Assembly (NCBI GenBank): GCA_001657385.1
Contig: LYSZ01000004.1
Coordinates: 186,001-250,000, forward strand
From: Parvularcula sp. BBD 1991-13
GTDB taxonomy: Bacteria > Pseudomonadota > Alphaproteobacteria > Caulobacterales > Parvularculaceae
Direction: 5' to 3'
DNA: 64,000 bases
This document shows positions 8,711-31,655 of this stretch, in pieces (position 1 is the stretch's first letter; every line of letters begins with the position of its first letter). Below the pieces are notes generated by a model, which saw nothing but the letters and a program-made list of their open reading frames with translations, ran no database searches and had not been told where the DNA came from. The translations under genes were made by a program, and so were the position numbers.

Positions 8711-8852
8711 AACCAAAAATACGCGCGGACGCCGTGCGCGGACCGGCGCCGCAGGATGCGGACGCGGGGCGTTTCGCCGCAGCTCCCAGCGCGCCCGGCC
8801 CTGATCCTCCTCGCGGCGGCAGGCGTAATGGGATCAACACAGGAGAGTGCGT

Positions 8853-9539
8853 ATGTCCGCCGACCGCAACGTCGATATTCCGAGTGCAGATACGATAAGC
8901 GCCGACAGAATGAGCGTAATTGCTCCTACGGCGAAAACCGTCGACGCCGGCATCGCGGCGTCGCAAATTCTGAACGCCGCCGCCTCGGAGGATGACGACG
9001 CGGCGGCGGCTCTTGTCGACGCCTCTATCCTGATCGTCGACGACGATGACGATCTGCGCGCGAGCCTTGGCCGAGCCATGGCTCGGCGCGGCTTCGATCC
9101 CGTTCTCGCTTCCAGCGTCAGGGACGCGGTCGACGCGGCGCGGGCGACGCCGCCGGCTTTCGCTGTGGTCGACCTGCGCCTTGGCGACGGCAGCGGGCTC
9201 GACGTTGTCGATGCGATCCACGCCGTCCGCCCGGACGCGCGCGTCGTTATCCTAAGCGGCTACGGCAACATTCCGACAGCCGTGGCCGCGGTGAAGGCCG
9301 GCGCCATCGATTACCTGCCGAAACCTGCGGATGCGGACGATCTGGAGAAGGCGCTGACCGCGCCGGACGGCGCCCATGCGGAACCGCCTGAAAACGCGAT
9401 GTCCGCCGACGAAGTGCGGCTTGCGCATATTGAAAAGGTCTATCATGACCATGGCCACAACATTTCCGAAACCGCCCGTCGTCTCGGCATGCACCGCCGC
9501 ACGCTGCAACGCATCCTGACGAAACGCGGCCTTAAATAG
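8853..9539 (+). CDS. regA: RegA/ActR/PrrA-family response regulator (orphan)
   Basis: Cytoplasmic response regulator of the redox-sensing RegBA/PrrBA/ActSR family. The 228-residue protein has a receiver domain from about residue 58 (SILIVDDDDDLRASL; phospho-acceptor in AVVDLRLGDGSG; KPADADDLEKAL at its end) and a C-terminal Fis-type helix-turn-helix (HNISETARRLGMHRRTLQRIL). The ATG at 8853 has AGGAG seven bases upstream; the GTG at 8847 is too close. The N-terminus carries about 50 extra, probably disordered residues compared with typical RegA. No RegB kinase or SenC gene is adjacent. Confidence 0.92.
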   Translation: MSADRNVDIPSADTISADRMSVIAPTAKTVDAGIAASQILNAAASEDDDAAAALVDASILIVDDDDDLRASLGRAMARRGFDPVLASSVRDAVDAARATPPAFAVVDLRLGDGSGLDVVDAIHAVRPDARVVILSGYGNIPTAVAAVKAGAIDYLPKPADADDLEKALTAPDGAHAEPPENAMSADEVRLAHIEKVYHDHGHNISETARRLGMHRRTLQRILTKRGLK

Positions 9540-10689: not shown

Positions 10690-10728
10690 AAAAACGGCTC
10701 CGCCAAAGGGGGAGAGTGGCGGAGCCGT
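10690..10728 (-). terminator. Intrinsic terminator of the 25-codon mini-gene
   Basis: A perfect 12-bp stem (ACGGCTCCGCCA 10694-10705 with TGGCGGAGCCGT 10717-10728, 11-nt loop) is followed on the minus strand by TTTTATTT. On the plus strand no T-run follows, so it serves minus-strand transcription, ending the transcript that carries the small ORF at 10763-10840. Confidence 0.88.
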
Positions 10729-10762
10729 TGGTTGCGTTCCTCTTCAGTACGATGGGGAAGGG

Positions 10763-10840
10763 CTAGAGGAACGCAGCAATCGCATGGAGGTGTGCGGTGA
10801 TAACCATGGCGACGGCGGCCAATGCGGCGAGCCGAAGCAT
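10763..10840 (-). CDS. Predicted 25-residue hydrophobic small protein
   Basis: Too short for normal gene finders but supported by its setting. ATG at 10840 is preceded by AAAGGAGAA with a 9-nt spacer, an excellent ribosome site. The peptide begins MLRLAALAAVAMVI, ends HLHAIAAFL and stops at TAG (10763-10765). It is almost wholly hydrophobic, with one arginine and two histidines, so it probably inserts in the inner membrane as a single helix. Upstream are a -10 TTTATA (10910-10915), a weak -35 TGTTTA (10933-10938, 17-bp spacer) and an ATAG-N7-CTAT box; downstream is a strong terminator. The predicted transcript is about 215 nt. Function unknown; it could also act as a regulatory RNA. Confidence 0.6.
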   Translation of the reverse strand: MLRLAALAAVAMVITAHLHAIAAFL

Positions 10841-10909
10841 GATATGGTTCTCCTTTGTCGTTTTCTCGGTCTGATGTTTCTCGGTGTTTTTCGTCTTGCC
10901 GTTACACCG

Positions 10910-10938
10910 TATAAATGGTCCGTCAGCGGCGATAAACA
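10910..10938 (-). promoter_or_regulatory. Predicted promoter of the mini-gene
   Basis: Minus strand: -35 TGTTTA (10933-10938), 17-bp spacer, -10 TTTATA (10910-10915). The poor -35 suits an activator-dependent promoter, and a LysR-type box sits 12 bp upstream of it. Expected transcript start is near 10903, giving a leader of about 60 nt. Confidence 0.5.
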
Positions 10939-10950
10939 ATCGATTAAAAA

Positions 10951-10975
10951 CTATTTTTTGATAGTCTTAATCTAT
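10951..10975. promoter_or_regulatory. LysR/OxyR-type operator upstream of the mini-gene
   Basis: CTAT (10951-10954), 6 nt, ATAG (10961-10964), 7 nt, CTAT (10972-10975). The ATAG-N7-CTAT part is a T-N11-A LysR box with the tetranucleotides of OxyR sites. The core GATAGtcTTaATCTAT matches 13 of 16 positions of the box in front of the adjacent LysR gene (11951-11967, read on the other strand). Confidence 0.55.
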
Positions 10976-10994: not shown

Positions 10995-11945
10995 TTATCG
11001 GGCGGTTTCGATAATCAGGTCCTTGAACTTGCGGTTGGCGACGTCGCGAATAATGTCGGCGATCTGACGATAGGTTTCCGCCCGTCCCGCGCTCTTGCGC
11101 CAGATCAGGCCGATCGGCCGCGTCACCGAACGTCCCTTCAGGCGCTTGACCACCACTTCGCTGTGGGCGCGGATTTCCGAATGCACGTACAGCGCGGGCA
11201 GGAACGCCGCGCCCATGCCCATTCCGACCATTTGACGCAGGGCGTCGAGGCTTGTCCCCTCGTAGTCGCGGATCAGCCGCGCGCCGAAGTCCTGACACAG
11301 AATATTGATCTGGTCATGCAGGTGGTATTGCGGGCTGAGCGACAGGACGTCGAGATTTTTCAGCGAATTGACCGTCAGCGCCTCGTCATTGGCGAGCGGG
11401 TGGTCGACGGCGAGCGCCAGGTAAAGCGGCTCGCGGAACAGCGGCGCGGTGATGTGATCCGCGCTCGCCGCGGGCAGTTGCGACAGGATGAGATCGTGCA
11501 GCCCCTTGCTCAACTCGTGTTCAAGGTCGCGCGGCGCGCTCTCGCGCACGTAAAGGTTCAGCTCCTTGTGCTTGCGATGGAGCGCCGCGACCACGTGCGG
11601 CAGAAGATATGGGCCCAGCGTCGGCTTGGAGCCGAGGCGGATGGTGCCGACGAGGCCGTGCTGGGCGCCGGCGGTGAAGTCGATAATGCCCTGCGCTTCG
11701 TCTGCAATCCGCCGCGCGCGGGCGGCGACTTCCCGGCCGAGCGGCGTCAGTGCGACGCCGGAACGGCTGCGCTCGATAAGCTGGACGCCCAGCACTGACT
11801 CCAGATTCTGAATCTGCACGCTGAGGGACGGCTGGGTCACGCCGCACATTTCGGCGGCGCGCCGAAAGTGGGCCGTTTCCTCGACCGCCAGCAGGCATTG
11901 AAGTTGTTTCATCGTCATCGCCGGCTGTGCCAAAATGCGCTCCAT
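10995..11945 (-). CDS. OxyR-like LysR-family regulator lacking the peroxidatic cysteine
   Basis: A 316-residue LysR transcription factor of the OxyR subfamily. The N-terminal helix-turn-helix spans about residues 14-70 (QLQCLLAVEETAHFRRAAE, TQPSLSVQIQNLE). In the sensor domain, the position of E. coli OxyR Cys199 is His208 (PQYHLHDQ instead of DGHCLRDQ), whereas the Cys208 equivalent is kept (Cys217 in ILCQDF). It therefore probably does not sense peroxide by the Cys199 mechanism, unlike the second OxyR at 30756-31655. ATG 11945 is the furthest start; MTMKQLQ inside is an alternative. Perfect ATAG-N7-CTAT boxes lie just upstream and just downstream of the gene. Confidence 0.88.
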   Translation of the reverse strand: MERILAQPAMTMKQLQCLLAVEETAHFRRAAEMCGVTQPSLSVQIQNLESVLGVQLIERSRSGVALTPLGREVAARARRIADEAQGIIDFTAGAQHGLVGTIRLGSKPTLGPYLLPHVVAALHRKHKELNLYVRESAPRDLEHELSKGLHDLILSQLPAASADHITAPLFREPLYLALAVDHPLANDEALTVNSLKNLDVLSLSPQYHLHDQINILCQDFGARLIRDYEGTSLDALRQMVGMGMGAAFLPALYVHSEIRAHSEVVVKRLKGRSVTRPIGLIWRKSAGRAETYRQIADIIRDVANRKFKDLIIETAR

Positions 11946-11951
11946 TGCTCA

Positions 11952-11966
11952 ATAGATAAACTCTAT
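11952..11966. promoter_or_regulatory. LysR/OxyR-type operator in front of the OxyR-like gene
   Basis: ATAG (11952-11955), seven bases, CTAT (11963-11966), an interrupted palindrome fitting T-N11-A. It begins 7 bp upstream of the ATG at 11945, as expected for autorepression. It is very similar to the box at 10961-10975. Confidence 0.55.
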
Positions 11967-12158: not shown

Positions 12159-13403
12159 ATGGCCGCCATCGTTTCGAAAATTCAGGATTTTCTGCGCCTG
12201 GAATCCGCCGGCGGCATCATCCTCATGATCGCCGCGCTGTTGGCGCTGTTCGCCAACAACACCTTTCTGAGCCCGGTCTACGGCGCGCTGTTGTCCACCC
12301 CCGTGGTCGTGCAGGTCGGCGCGCTCGAGATCGCCAAGCCGCTGCTCCTGTGGATCAATGACGGTCTGATGGCGGTGTTCTTCTTTCTCGTCGGTCTGGA
12401 GATCAAACGGGAAGTGCTGCAAGGCGAGCTGTCGAGCTTCGACAAGGCGGCCCTGCCGATCTTCGCCGCCATCGGCGGCATGGCGGCCCCGGCGCTGGTC
12501 TATGCGTCGTTCAACTGGGGCGACGCGGAGACCCTCCGCGGCTGGGCGATCCCGGCGGCGACCGACATCGCCTTCGCGCTCGGCATCCTCGCATTGCTCG
12601 GCGCGCGCGCGCCCGTCAGTCTGAAGATTTTTCTTCTCGCCGTGGCGATCATCGACGATCTCGGCGCCATCGTCATCATCGCGATGTTTTACACCGCCGA
12701 CCTTTCTCTGGCCGCGCTCGGCCTTGCCGGCGCCGGCTTCGCCGGTCTGCTCGCGCTGAACCGCCTCGGCGTGAAACGGGTGACGCCCTATGTCCTGATC
12801 GGCGCGTTCATGTGGGTGTGCGTCCTGAAGTCCGGGGTGCATGCGACGCTGGCGGGCGTGCTGACGGCGCTGGTCATTCCGATCCAAGGCCACACGCCCG
12901 CGGCGCAATCGCCGCTGCACAGGGTCGAACACGACCTGCATCCCTGGGTGGCGTTCATGGTGCTGCCGATCTTCGCCTTCGCCAACGCCGGGGTTTCGTT
13001 CGAGGGGCTGTCCTTCGGCGCGCTGCTGGCGCCGGCGCCGATCGGCATCGCGCTCGGGCTTTATCTCGGCAAGCCGCTGGGGGTCGTCGGCCTGACCTTC
13101 CTGGCGGTGAAGGCGGGCGTTGCGAAACTGCCGCCCGCGATGGGCTGGCCGCAGCTCGCCGGCGTCGCCTGCCTCACCGGCGTCGGTTTCACCATGAGCC
13201 TTTTCATCGGCGGGCTTGCATTTGACAGCGCAGAGAGGCTCAACGACGTGCGCCTCGGCGTTCTGATGGGCTCGGTCCTGTCCGGCGTTACCGGCTACTT
13301 GCTTCTCAGTCGCCTGCCGTTGCCCGAGGCGCCCGCCAGAGCCGCCGCAGCGAGCAAGTCCGCCGCAGCGAGCGAGTCCGCCGCCGACGCCAAGGCGATA
13401 TGA
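12159..13403 (+). CDS. nhaA: Na+/H+ antiporter NhaA
   Basis: Inner-membrane sodium/proton antiporter for pH and salt homeostasis. The 414-residue protein has about 12 membrane segments. Diagnostic motifs are MAVFFFLVGLEIKREV near residue 70, IPAATDIAFALGIL near residue 130 (unwound helix IV) and AVAIIDDLGAIVIIA near residue 165, containing the paired aspartates that bind the ion. The last 25 residues are alanine/serine-rich (repeated AAASKSAAASE-like units) and atypical. Upstream, a 19-bp unit containing CTGGCGCATGGCC is duplicated near 12055-12095. Confidence 0.96.
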   Translation: MAAIVSKIQDFLRLESAGGIILMIAALLALFANNTFLSPVYGALLSTPVVVQVGALEIAKPLLLWINDGLMAVFFFLVGLEIKREVLQGELSSFDKAALPIFAAIGGMAAPALVYASFNWGDAETLRGWAIPAATDIAFALGILALLGARAPVSLKIFLLAVAIIDDLGAIVIIAMFYTADLSLAALGLAGAGFAGLLALNRLGVKRVTPYVLIGAFMWVCVLKSGVHATLAGVLTALVIPIQGHTPAAQSPLHRVEHDLHPWVAFMVLPIFAFANAGVSFEGLSFGALLAPAPIGIALGLYLGKPLGVVGLTFLAVKAGVAKLPPAMGWPQLAGVACLTGVGFTMSLFIGGLAFDSAERLNDVRLGVLMGSVLSGVTGYLLLSRLPLPEAPARAAAASKSAAASESAADAKAI

Positions 13404-29440: not shown

Positions 29441-29971
29441 TCAGGCGGCGGCGGCTTCCGCGGTCAGGATCGCCGCGGCGGCGTTGACCACGGACGCGAT
29501 GCGCAGGGCGGCCTGCACCTGCTCCTGGGTGAGACCGGCTTTGCGCACGACCTTTTCATGGGAGTCGAGGCACATGCCGCAGCCATTGACCGCGGAGACG
29601 GCAAGCGACCAGAGTTCGAAATCGACCTTGTCGACGCCGGGCTTGCCGATCACGTTCATGCGCAGCTTGGCCGGCATTTTTGCGTATTCGTTCGTCTCCA
29701 TCAGGTGCGTCGCGCGGTAATAGACGTTGTTCATCGCCATGATCGCCGCGGCGGCCTTGGCGCCGGCAACGGCGTCGTCGCTCAAGACGGGCGCGACCTC
29801 GGCTTCGATCGCCTTGATCACGTCGCTATTGCCCGTCGCATGCGCCGAGGCGAGAAACGCGCCCCATTTCTGCTGGTCCGAGAGAACGCTTTCGCTCGAC
29901 AGCATGCCGAGATTGAGGCGAATGTCCTTGGCGTAATCCGGGATCCGGTCCCGTAAACTGTCGATGCTCAT
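29441..29971 (-). CDS. ahpD: Alkyl hydroperoxide reductase AhpD-type (carboxymuconolactone decarboxylase fold)
   Basis: A 176-residue all-helical AhpD protein. The active-site motif is [11 protein letters not shown] near residues 129-139: a CxxC pair with the histidine four residues on, as in mycobacterial AhpD, where it has weak peroxidase activity and reduces AhpC. It starts downstream of ahpC on the same strand with 86 bp between them, so AhpC-AhpD likely form a peroxidase-reductant pair under the divergent oxyR. Confidence 0.93.
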
Positions 29972-30056: not shown

Positions 30057-30602
30057 TTAAAGCGTGTCGCCGCCGACCGGGCGGTTGCACGGACAAAGCT
30101 CGTCCGTTTGCAGACCGTCGAGCACGCGAAGCGTGTCCTGCGGGTTGCGGCCGACATTCAGGTTGTTCACGTAGACGTGCTGAATGACGTTGTGCGGATC
30201 GACCACGAAGGTCGCGCGCAGGGCGACGCCCTCCGCCGAGCGGATGCCAAGACCGTCGATCAGCGATCCCGTGGTGTCGGCGAATTGCCAGGCCGGGTGC
30301 TTGTCGAGATCGGGATGGTCGCGCCGCCATGCGAGTTTGCAGAACTCGTTGTCCGAGCTGCCGCCCATGACGACCGCGTCGCGGTCCTCAAATTCCTTCG
30401 CGAGCCGGCCGAACTCGGCGATTTCCGTCGGGCAGACGAAGGTGAAGTCTTTCGGGTAGAAGTAGATGATTTTCCATTTTCCGGAAAAGCTGTCCTGGGT
30501 GATGTCTTCGAAAGCCGAAACGCCGTCTTCTTCGTGGGCGTTAAAGCCTGGTTTTACGCCAACAACCGTGAAATCCGGCAATTTGTCTCCGACGCCTAGC
30601 AT
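30057..30602 (-). CDS. ahpC: AhpC-type peroxiredoxin
   Basis: Typical 2-Cys peroxiredoxin reducing H2O2, organic peroxides and peroxynitrite. The 181-residue protein has the peroxidatic cysteine in DFTFVCPTEIAEF (Cys57) and resolving cysteines in ELCPCNRPVGG (Cys170/Cys172). ATG 30602 has AGGAG upstream and fits the family N-terminus. It is divergent from oxyR across 153 bp, the classical arrangement for OxyR-controlled ahpC. Confidence 0.95.
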   Translation of the reverse strand: MLGVGDKLPDFTVVGVKPGFNAHEEDGVSAFEDITQDSFSGKWKIIYFYPKDFTFVCPTEIAEFGRLAKEFEDRDAVVMGGSSDNEFCKLAWRRDHPDLDKHPAWQFADTTGSLIDGLGIRSAEGVALRATFVVDPHNVIQHVYVNNLNVGRNPQDTLRVLDGLQTDELCPCNRPVGGDTL

Positions 30603-30755
30603 GGGAGGTCTCCTCATCATTCATGAATTACGGAAAAAGATATGGCTGTCCTAACCATGCGCCTTCAATAGACCAGTTGGAAATTTAAGCAAATTGATTA
30701 TGTTTCTAACTCGCATCGATTATTCCGATGTGCGTCGGCGTTTTGAGAGTGAATC

Positions 30756-31655
30756 ATGTCCATACCCGCCCTGCCTACCCTGCGTCAGCTTCAGTTCTTC
30801 ATGGCGCTGATCCGGCGCCAGTCCTTTTCCAAAGCCGCGGACGACTGTTTCGTTTCGCAATCCACTCTTTCCTCGGCGATCAAGGAAATGGAATTGCTGC
30901 TGGGGCGTCAGCTTGTCGACCGTTCCACCCGCTCCTTCGCCCTTACCCCGGCGGGGGAGGAGGTGGCCGCCCGCGCCTCGGAAATCCTGGCCGCCACGGA
31001 GGACCTGGTGCGCGCGGCGAGCGGGCGCCGGCCGCTGGAAGGCGCGTTCCACCTCGGGGTGATTCCGACGGTTGCGCCGTTCCTGCTGCCGCGGGCGACC
31101 CAGGACCTCAACAAGTCGCATCCGACGCTGGAGCTTTACCTGCGCGAAGACCTGACGGCGGCGCTGGCCGAGCGGCTGTCCGCGGGGCTGATCGACGCGG
31201 CGCTCATGGCGTTTCCCTATGAAATCGCCGGCGCCGACAGCATCGAGATCGCGGACGATCCGTTCTGGTTCGCCTGCGCCCCGGATCACGAGTTCGCCGG
31301 GCGCGATGCGCTTGACACCGACGACCTCGCGGGGTGTGAGCTGTTGCTGCTGGAGGACGGTCATTGCCTTCGCGAGCATGCGATTGACGCCTGCCAGCTC
31401 GCCAACCGGAGCGCATCGTCGTCCTTCGGCGGGACCAGCCTGTTCACCCTGGCGCAGATGGCGCGAACCGGGCTCGGCGCGACCCTGCTGCCGGAAATGG
31501 CGGTGCGCGACGGCCTCGCCAAGGCCGCCGGCCTCGTCGCCATTCCGTTCCGCGATCCCAAGCCGTCGCGCAAGATCGGCGTCGCCTGGCGGCGCGGCTC
31601 GGGCCGCCGCGACGAAGCCGAGGCGGTCGCCAAGGTCTTCGCCGCCCAGTTCTGA
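30756..31655 (+). CDS. oxyR: Hydrogen-peroxide-sensing regulator OxyR
   Basis: A 299-residue LysR regulator with the complete OxyR redox switch: Cys204 in LLEDGHCLREHA and Cys213 in DACQLA, equivalent to E. coli Cys199 and Cys208 and nine residues apart. The N-terminal helix-turn-helix is FSKAADDCFVSQSTLSSAIKEME. Oxidation forms the intramolecular disulfide and activates peroxide-defence genes. It is divergent from ahpC-ahpD, its probable targets. In contrast, the paralogue at 10995-11945 has lost the first cysteine. Confidence 0.95.
   Translation: MSIPALPTLRQLQFFMALIRRQSFSKAADDCFVSQSTLSSAIKEMELLLGRQLVDRSTRSFALTPAGEEVAARASEILAATEDLVRAASGRRPLEGAFHLGVIPTVAPFLLPRATQDLNKSHPTLELYLREDLTAALAERLSAGLIDAALMAFPYEIAGADSIEIADDPFWFACAPDHEFAGRDALDTDDLAGCELLLLEDGHCLREHAIDACQLANRSASSSFGGTSLFTLAQMARTGLGATLLPEMAVRDGLAKAAGLVAIPFRDPKPSRKIGVAWRRGSGRRDEAEAVAKVFAAQF

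Follow-up and report, generated by a model that had tools for sequence, protein, structure and literature searches.

In Parvularcula sp. BBD 1991-13, an open reading frame (ORF) of only 25 codons lies downstream of a gene for an OxyR-type LysR regulator, raising the question whether so short a frame is a gene at all and, if so, whether its product takes part in peroxide defence, as implied by a first-pass annotation that framed the unit after oxyS, or in some other task. The features of the locus, which belongs to a window of 64,000 nucleotides (the whole stretch of DNA analysed), are collected in Table 1. Judged from its sequence, the mini-gene looks like a genuine micropeptide gene, until now unannotated; indeed, the elements from which the first-pass annotation had assembled it, namely a minus-strand frame (10840-10763) with a strong ribosome-binding site at a spacer of 9 nt (from GGAG to ATG), a hydrophobic product and a terminator with a 12-bp stem and a T-run, are all found in place. 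The terminator folds, its stem arms (10694-10705 and 10717-10728) enclosing a loop of 11 nt, and is absent from the output of a terminator scan in which loops of 3-8 nt were allowed.

Table 1. Features of the mini-gene locus, with positions in the window
Feature	Position	Strand	Basis and remarks
Intrinsic terminator	10690..10728	-	12-bp stem and T-run; sequence and folding
Stem near the stop codon	10733..10775	-	ORF end (10775-10765) pairs with 3' UTR (10743-10733), 11 bp
25-codon ORF, one hydrophobic span	10763..10840	-	translation MLRLAALAAVAMVITAHLHAIAAFL, then stop
Shine-Dalgarno sequence AAAGGAGAA	10848..10856	-	sequence; purine-rich site in 18 copies (by eye)
Putative -10 element TTTATA	10910..10915	-	by eye; weakly conserved
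Putative -35 element TTGTTT	10934..10939	-	by eye; TTGTT keeps a constant spacing from the box in relatives
OxyR-type LysR box ATAGATTAAGACTAT	10961..10975	-	perfect ATAG-N7-CTAT; position and conservation
OxyR-type LysR regulator, C199 replaced by His	10995..11918	-	alignment to E. coli OxyR
Second perfect box	11952..11966	.	between regulator and nhaA, upstream of the regulator
nhaA, Na+/H+ antiporter	12159..13403	+	divergent from the regulator

With the whole unit as query, a DNA-level search of 60 genomes matched two, the window's own and a single relative (1 of 59), the latter at the 3' UTR and terminator only. Because the unit is too divergent for such a search, the regulator was taken as an anchor, and homologues of the peptide were sought by reading the flanks of its orthologues. 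A profile of 11 peptides (A1), searched in 62 genomes of the family with membership set at E <= 1e-4, detected the peptide in 16 of them, above chance, all belonging to two genera, here called g1 (11 of 28 genomes) and g7 (5 of 6); a second profile of 17 peptides (A2, cut-off E <= 0.001), applied to order and class sets that were drawn from larger groups, returned the identical 16 among 398 genomes of the order and a single one, the window's own, among 385 genomes of the class. The carriers include Marinicaulis sp., Aquisalinus flavus, A. luteolus and Parvularcula sp.; Marinicaulis (now Hyphococcus) and Aquisalinus are placed by the NCBI taxonomy in the Parvularculaceae. At 13 other loci of the family that hold the regulator, a small hydrophobic ORF with a ribosome-binding site was found in two, L187 and L184, and none in the remaining 11: the former is a diverged copy of the peptide in genome G093, located by position and ribosome-binding site, while the latter, not counted as a member, lies on the opposite strand and does not resemble the family. 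With G014, which holds two copies, the total comes to 18 copies from 17 genomes.

The frame is kept in relatives that carry the box and the terminator, so that the conservation check proposed by the first-pass annotation, once run, was passed by the ORF. All 18 copies count 25 codons; pN is lower than pS in 149 of the 153 pairs of copies (which are not independent), the differences at codon positions 1:2:3 over all pairs amount to 1926:1278:2397, and the mean BLOSUM62 score is 1.78 in the coding frame versus at most 0.90 in each of the five other frames. Two pairs illustrate the trend: G033 and G085 differ by 4 synonymous and no amino-acid changes, G064 and G087 by 7 synonymous and 2 other changes. 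The start codon is ATG in 15 of the 18 copies, TTG (G011), GTG (G093) and ATA (G008) occurring once each; the ATA might reflect a fault in the assembly, the loss of the start or the use of a rare start codon. As judged from these substitution patterns, the 25-residue frame is under purifying selection. That it should be instead a leader or a decayed fragment, whose product has no function, would agree with its very small size and with the ATA of G008, and is nevertheless highly improbable, given the selection acting on a frame kept in every copy, the terminator downstream and the fact that the next large ORF beyond this terminator is on the other strand of the window.

The 17 distinct peptides are markedly hydrophobic (mean hydropathy 1.46-2.17); positions 16 and 20 are occupied by G, A or S in all of them, and R3 and Y17 are each present in 14. 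These properties would suit a single helix whose N terminus is kept inside by R3 and which may pack against a partner through the small-xxx-small face formed by positions 16 and 20. No credible match to the peptide was found in Pfam, NCBIfam, PHROGs or the PDB, in agreement with the earlier statement that no described family accounts for it: five peptides searched in both Pfam and NCBIfam gave none at E <= 10 (weak matches being removed by the filters of HMMER), 17 peptides gave against Pfam at E <= 1 one match of one member to DUF4462 (0.32) and nothing else, the PDB gave none at E <= 1, and one member matches one PHROG at 0.16. Among the literature matches listed, nothing concerns the peptide or an OxyR-type regulator of nhaA. 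Apparently, the peptide represents a new and undescribed family within the small membrane proteins, whose well-characterised bacterial representatives are described as acting mainly through association with larger membrane proteins, with KdpF, AcrZ, MgtS and MntS tuning transporters (PMC11539335). The window peptide resembles these four in being short and hydrophobic, membrane partners being documented there for the known cases (PMC11539335); unlike this comparison set, however, it matches no Pfam, NCBIfam or PDB small-protein entry.

The transcript, rather than the peptide, might be the active product. The unit shares with E. coli oxyS its position beside an OxyR-type gene and its shortness; oxyS, however, is an annotated regulatory RNA lying divergently upstream of oxyR, whereas the unit of the window codes for a peptide and lies downstream of its neighbour in the same direction. 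A dual-function or mainly regulatory RNA of the oxyS kind, in which the ORF would be secondary, is in our opinion unlikely. It draws on the prediction of a short, box-controlled transcript with a strong terminator and on the pairing between the end of the ORF and the 3' UTR, which occurs near or over the stop codon in the window and in some relatives, reaches 12 bp in G004 and G008 against 11 in the window, and shows one compensatory change, from C-G to T-A, between the window and G004/G008. In 6 of the 18 copies (G000, which is the window's own, G004, G008, G010, G022 and G023) pairing of this strength is reached by no more than 11 of 500 shuffled UTRs; G013 is borderline (41 of 500), and in the other 11 copies the pairing is not above chance, at least 132 of 500 shuffles being as strong. 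Moreover, it is the frame and its amino acids that are conserved, with an excess of synonymous changes; the window contains no Rfam match at gathering score, and the DNA-level similarity of 3' UTR and terminator is confined to the one relative mentioned above. The RNA may have a second function in one part of the family, but the pairing is not family-wide.

Control of the unit by the adjacent regulator is suggested by the box. The first-pass annotation had let it extend from 10951 to 10975; the perfect ATAG-N7-CTAT is indeed there, within narrower limits (10961-10975), and begins 19 nt past the stop codon of the LysR gene. The weak promoter that had been placed at 10910-10938 also fits by eye, its TTGTTT and TTTATA being 18 nt apart and TTGTT recurring in relatives; a promoter consensus scan gave no match at 10910-10939, in keeping with its weakness. 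Perfect boxes number 2 in the window versus 0.06 expected, while over the whole genome the pattern is not enriched (11 sites versus 15 for a reversed control); for this reason a box is counted here only where position and conservation back it, and no regulon is called from boxes alone. A survey of the 160-nt upstream regions of all 18 copies for the form AT[AC]G-N7-C[GT]AT found it in 15 of them (shuffles: mean 0.18, maximum 2), the exceptions being G086, one of the two G014 copies (G014a) and G093. In the 11 copies with both elements, box and TTGTT are separated, start to start, by 37 nt, except in the window, where the figure is 36 nt; G011, G033 and G004 have one extra TTGTT each, at another distance. 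If TTGTT is taken as the -35 element, the centre of the box falls about 65 bp before the start of transcription, which is the usual recruitment site of LysR activators. The conservation of the box and its fixed distance to a -35-like element support a box-controlled, monocistronic unit, along the lines originally proposed.

The regulator itself, whose frame is open from 11945 and which, judging by the alignment, probably starts at 11918, shares 35% identity with E. coli OxyR, with His at the position of the peroxidatic C199 and the resolving C208 kept, and its score against the NCBIfam OxyR model, 190.1 bits, is below the cut-off of 329. A Cys at the C199 position was found in none of 80 related loci (the best 80 of 89 confirmed; L006, L013, L020 and L021, which came from other searches and were apparently read in the wrong orientation, were left out). 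On this alignment the regulator is no peroxide sensor of the known kind. The canonical OxyR of the window is encoded elsewhere, at 30756-31655 (+), with both cysteines and 38% identity to the E. coli protein; it is divergent from genes which by eye are ahpC- and ahpD-like, at 30057-30620 (-) and 29441-29971 (-). The peroxide framing of the first-pass annotation, according to which the mini-gene would be a peroxide-induced member of an OxyR regulon, consequently loses most of its appeal: the OxyR-type box and the 35% identity speak for it, and the canonical OxyR might cross-bind, but with a His-bearing neighbour, the 80 best loci devoid of the cysteine, a true OxyR encoded some distance away and a neighbourhood pointing to Na+/H+ antiport, it is quite improbable.

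A regulator of similar construction has been described in Magnetospirillum gryphiswaldense MSR-1, where OxyR-Like (MGMSRv-2-2107), devoid of the reactive Cys201, footprints GATA-N9-TATC at its own promoter and at that of pdh (PMC5308003, main text), the same palindrome as the ATAG-N7-CTAT of the window. Both proteins are OxyR homologues in which the reactive cysteine is absent (PMC5308003), and OxyR homology, loss of the Cys and a perfect ATAG-N7-CTAT just upstream of the gene are all seen in the sequence of the window regulator. The two differ in their company: the reported targets of the MSR-1 protein are itself and the pdh operon, and the word "antiporter" is absent from the main text of the paper (PMC5308003). 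Among the literature matches listed, OxyR-Like regulators are described in that one paper and are not linked to antiporters.

Such a link emerges from the genes around the regulator, surveyed up to 3 kb on either side in the same 80 loci (the best 80 of 89 confirmed; some end at contig ends), with Pfam-checked references and with counts that stand without a background rate for other LysR genes. NhaA is found near the regulator in 15 of these 80 loci and a Mrp-type antiporter subunit in 25 further ones (a Proton_antipo_M protein with MbhD/MbhE parts, the E <= 1e-10 match not separating related subunits), so that NhaA or Mrp-type genes lie within 3 kb in 40 of the best 80; at least one among NhaA, Mrp-type, Na/Ca exchanger, Na+-bicarbonate transporter, SulP and MscS is present in 49, and a universal stress protein in 17. 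It was also observed that in 6 of the 80 best loci (L080, L082, L088, L090, L091 and L108) an ATP synthase a subunit matches near the regulator, confirmed by Pfam for L090:1103-1870; the box form occurs shortly past the regulator in five of these six, L088 being the exception. An oxidative-stress label would be misleading for the C199-less group, because half of the best 80 loci adjoin NhaA or Mrp-type genes.

E. coli NhaR is a LysR-type regulator. Its gene too stands beside nhaA, as in the window; it lies, however, downstream of nhaA in the same direction, whereas the window regulator is divergent from nhaA, and a pairwise BLASTP of the two regulators gave no significant similarity (best E-value 5.0). 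As regards the Na+-dependent activation of nhaA that characterises NhaR, what the window regulator and its relatives show is linkage to antiporter genes.

Within g1 and g7 (34 genomes; peptide at E <= 1e-4, regulator at E <= 1e-70), all 16 genomes that have the regulator carry the peptide, and none of the 18 that lack it does (Fisher p 4.5e-10, relatedness ignored). NhaA at E <= 1e-140, a cut-off picked post hoc, occurs in 13 of the 16 peptide-bearing genomes, at 234-1884 nt from the peptide gene in each of the 13, versus 1 of the 18 others; when the cut-off is relaxed to E <= 1e-40, the difference shrinks to 13 of 16 versus 4 of 18. The presence of the peptide thus tracks the regulator better than NhaA in these genera; in other genera, 13 genomes have the regulator (E <= 1e-70) and only G093 has a peptide, the diverged one. 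G020 holds a close NhaA with neither regulator nor peptide, and in G004, a fragmented genome whose contig ends beside the regulator, NhaA was not seen. NhaA cannot be the sole partner of the peptide, since two genomes that keep the peptide, G033 and G085, lack any NhaA match at E <= 1e-40; this reading was rejected.

In G064, G086 and G087 the peptide gene itself is divergent from nhaA, 234-244 nt away; between the two genes G064 has one perfect box and G087 has two, whereas G086 shows nothing but near-boxes. One copy of G014, parted from the regulator on another contig, still points away from the nhaA side, with three boxes and a small gene in between; the peptide gene is followed by a gene for a Na+-dependent bicarbonate transporter. 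The other G014 copy is the one without a box. A type I toxin, that is, a peptide depolarising the membrane and normally silenced by an antisense RNA, would fit in size and hydrophobicity and would agree with the two copies in G014, and yet is very unlikely for a gene that has an activator-box promoter, is linked to the regulator and to nhaA, and is matched by the profile just once in 15 of the 16 genomes; a plasmid search made with one of the peptides also gave no match. A small conserved gene of another kind was noticed between the regulator or peptide gene and nhaA (for instance L033:2450-2881 (-) and L196:4250-4693 (-)); its product, of 143-164 aa in three cases, has an MFDS/MFDA motif and gave no Pfam match for the two tested. 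Among the 11 peptide-bearing g1 genomes this gene was labelled in 8; it was not seen in the window.

Taken with the family data, the reading that we consider fairly probable is that of a micropeptide made under a C199-less OxyR-type activator and packing on a membrane partner during Na+, pH or energy stress. The regulator (10995-11918) would bind the box at 10961-10975 and, once bound, activate transcription of an RNA of about 210 nt; the peptide would insert as one helix with its N terminus inside, its small-xxx-small face (positions 16 and 20) would pack against the membrane partner, and it would tune ion or proton traffic while the antiporter-linked regulon is on. A role in ion balance is more probable for the peptide than one in peroxide defence, because the regulator is devoid of the peroxide-sensing cysteine and a sodium/proton antiporter is usually nearby. 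The most economical function, we infer, is the tuning of an ion transporter or of some other membrane protein that belongs to the regulon; the most likely partner would be the linked NhaA, or a further member of this putative regulon such as DUF533. The narrower proposal of a dedicated single-helix accessory of Na+/H+ antiport, acting on NhaA (or on another transporter where NhaA is missing) and made on demand by an OxyR-type activator that would have lost peroxide sensing and been re-tasked to ion or proton-motive-force stress, is doubtful.

DUF533 enters because of its distribution and position. Its genes (E < 1e-50) occur in 11 genomes of the family, ten of which have the profile peptide while the eleventh is G093; in G014, G064, G086 and G087 the DUF533 gene comes after the regulator, and in the window's own genome a perfect box (G000:C23:83473-83487; loci L149 and L152) precedes a DUF533 gene by 181 nt, which suggests a small regulon of the regulator 10995-11918. 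Of 12 DUF533 loci, 6 have the form AT[AC]G-N7-C[GT]AT in the 500 nt before the start, which was called mechanically; the window's genome is among them, as is L153, whose start is unsure. The other six are without it, although inspection by eye shows a near match in three of these (L160-L162). The case for DUF533 as a target of this regulator, built on such boxes, is thus a partial one.

These observations add to the small membrane proteins a micropeptide family that is well supported and whose phylogenetic profile is both narrow and readable, and tie it to widespread OxyR relatives without the cysteine that underlies OxyR chemistry. If the peptide does tune an antiporter, it would offer a handle on the control of transporters after their synthesis in marine bacteria.

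Two minor observations concern other genes. At 8847-9539 (+) the window encodes a redox response regulator of the ActR/PrrA/RegA type, scoring 250.3 against an NCBIfam cut-off of 250. Furthermore, ten weak A1 matches (E 0.0087-0.1) were not counted as members of the family: those of L133-L135 sit in open frames of 118-343 aa, and those of L114, L131, L132 and L137-L140 belong to a different, longer small peptide with a common GY(F/L/V)SA stretch. This second conserved peptide, of 44 aa in L114 (G000:C24:66168-69227, positions 1441-1575), has a stop codon overlapping the next ATG (TAATG or TGATG); in L114 it is followed by a DUF2975 gene and is itself without a Pfam match. The GY(F/L/V)SA stretch of the L114-type and of the 25-residue peptides is possibly a common membrane-docking motif.
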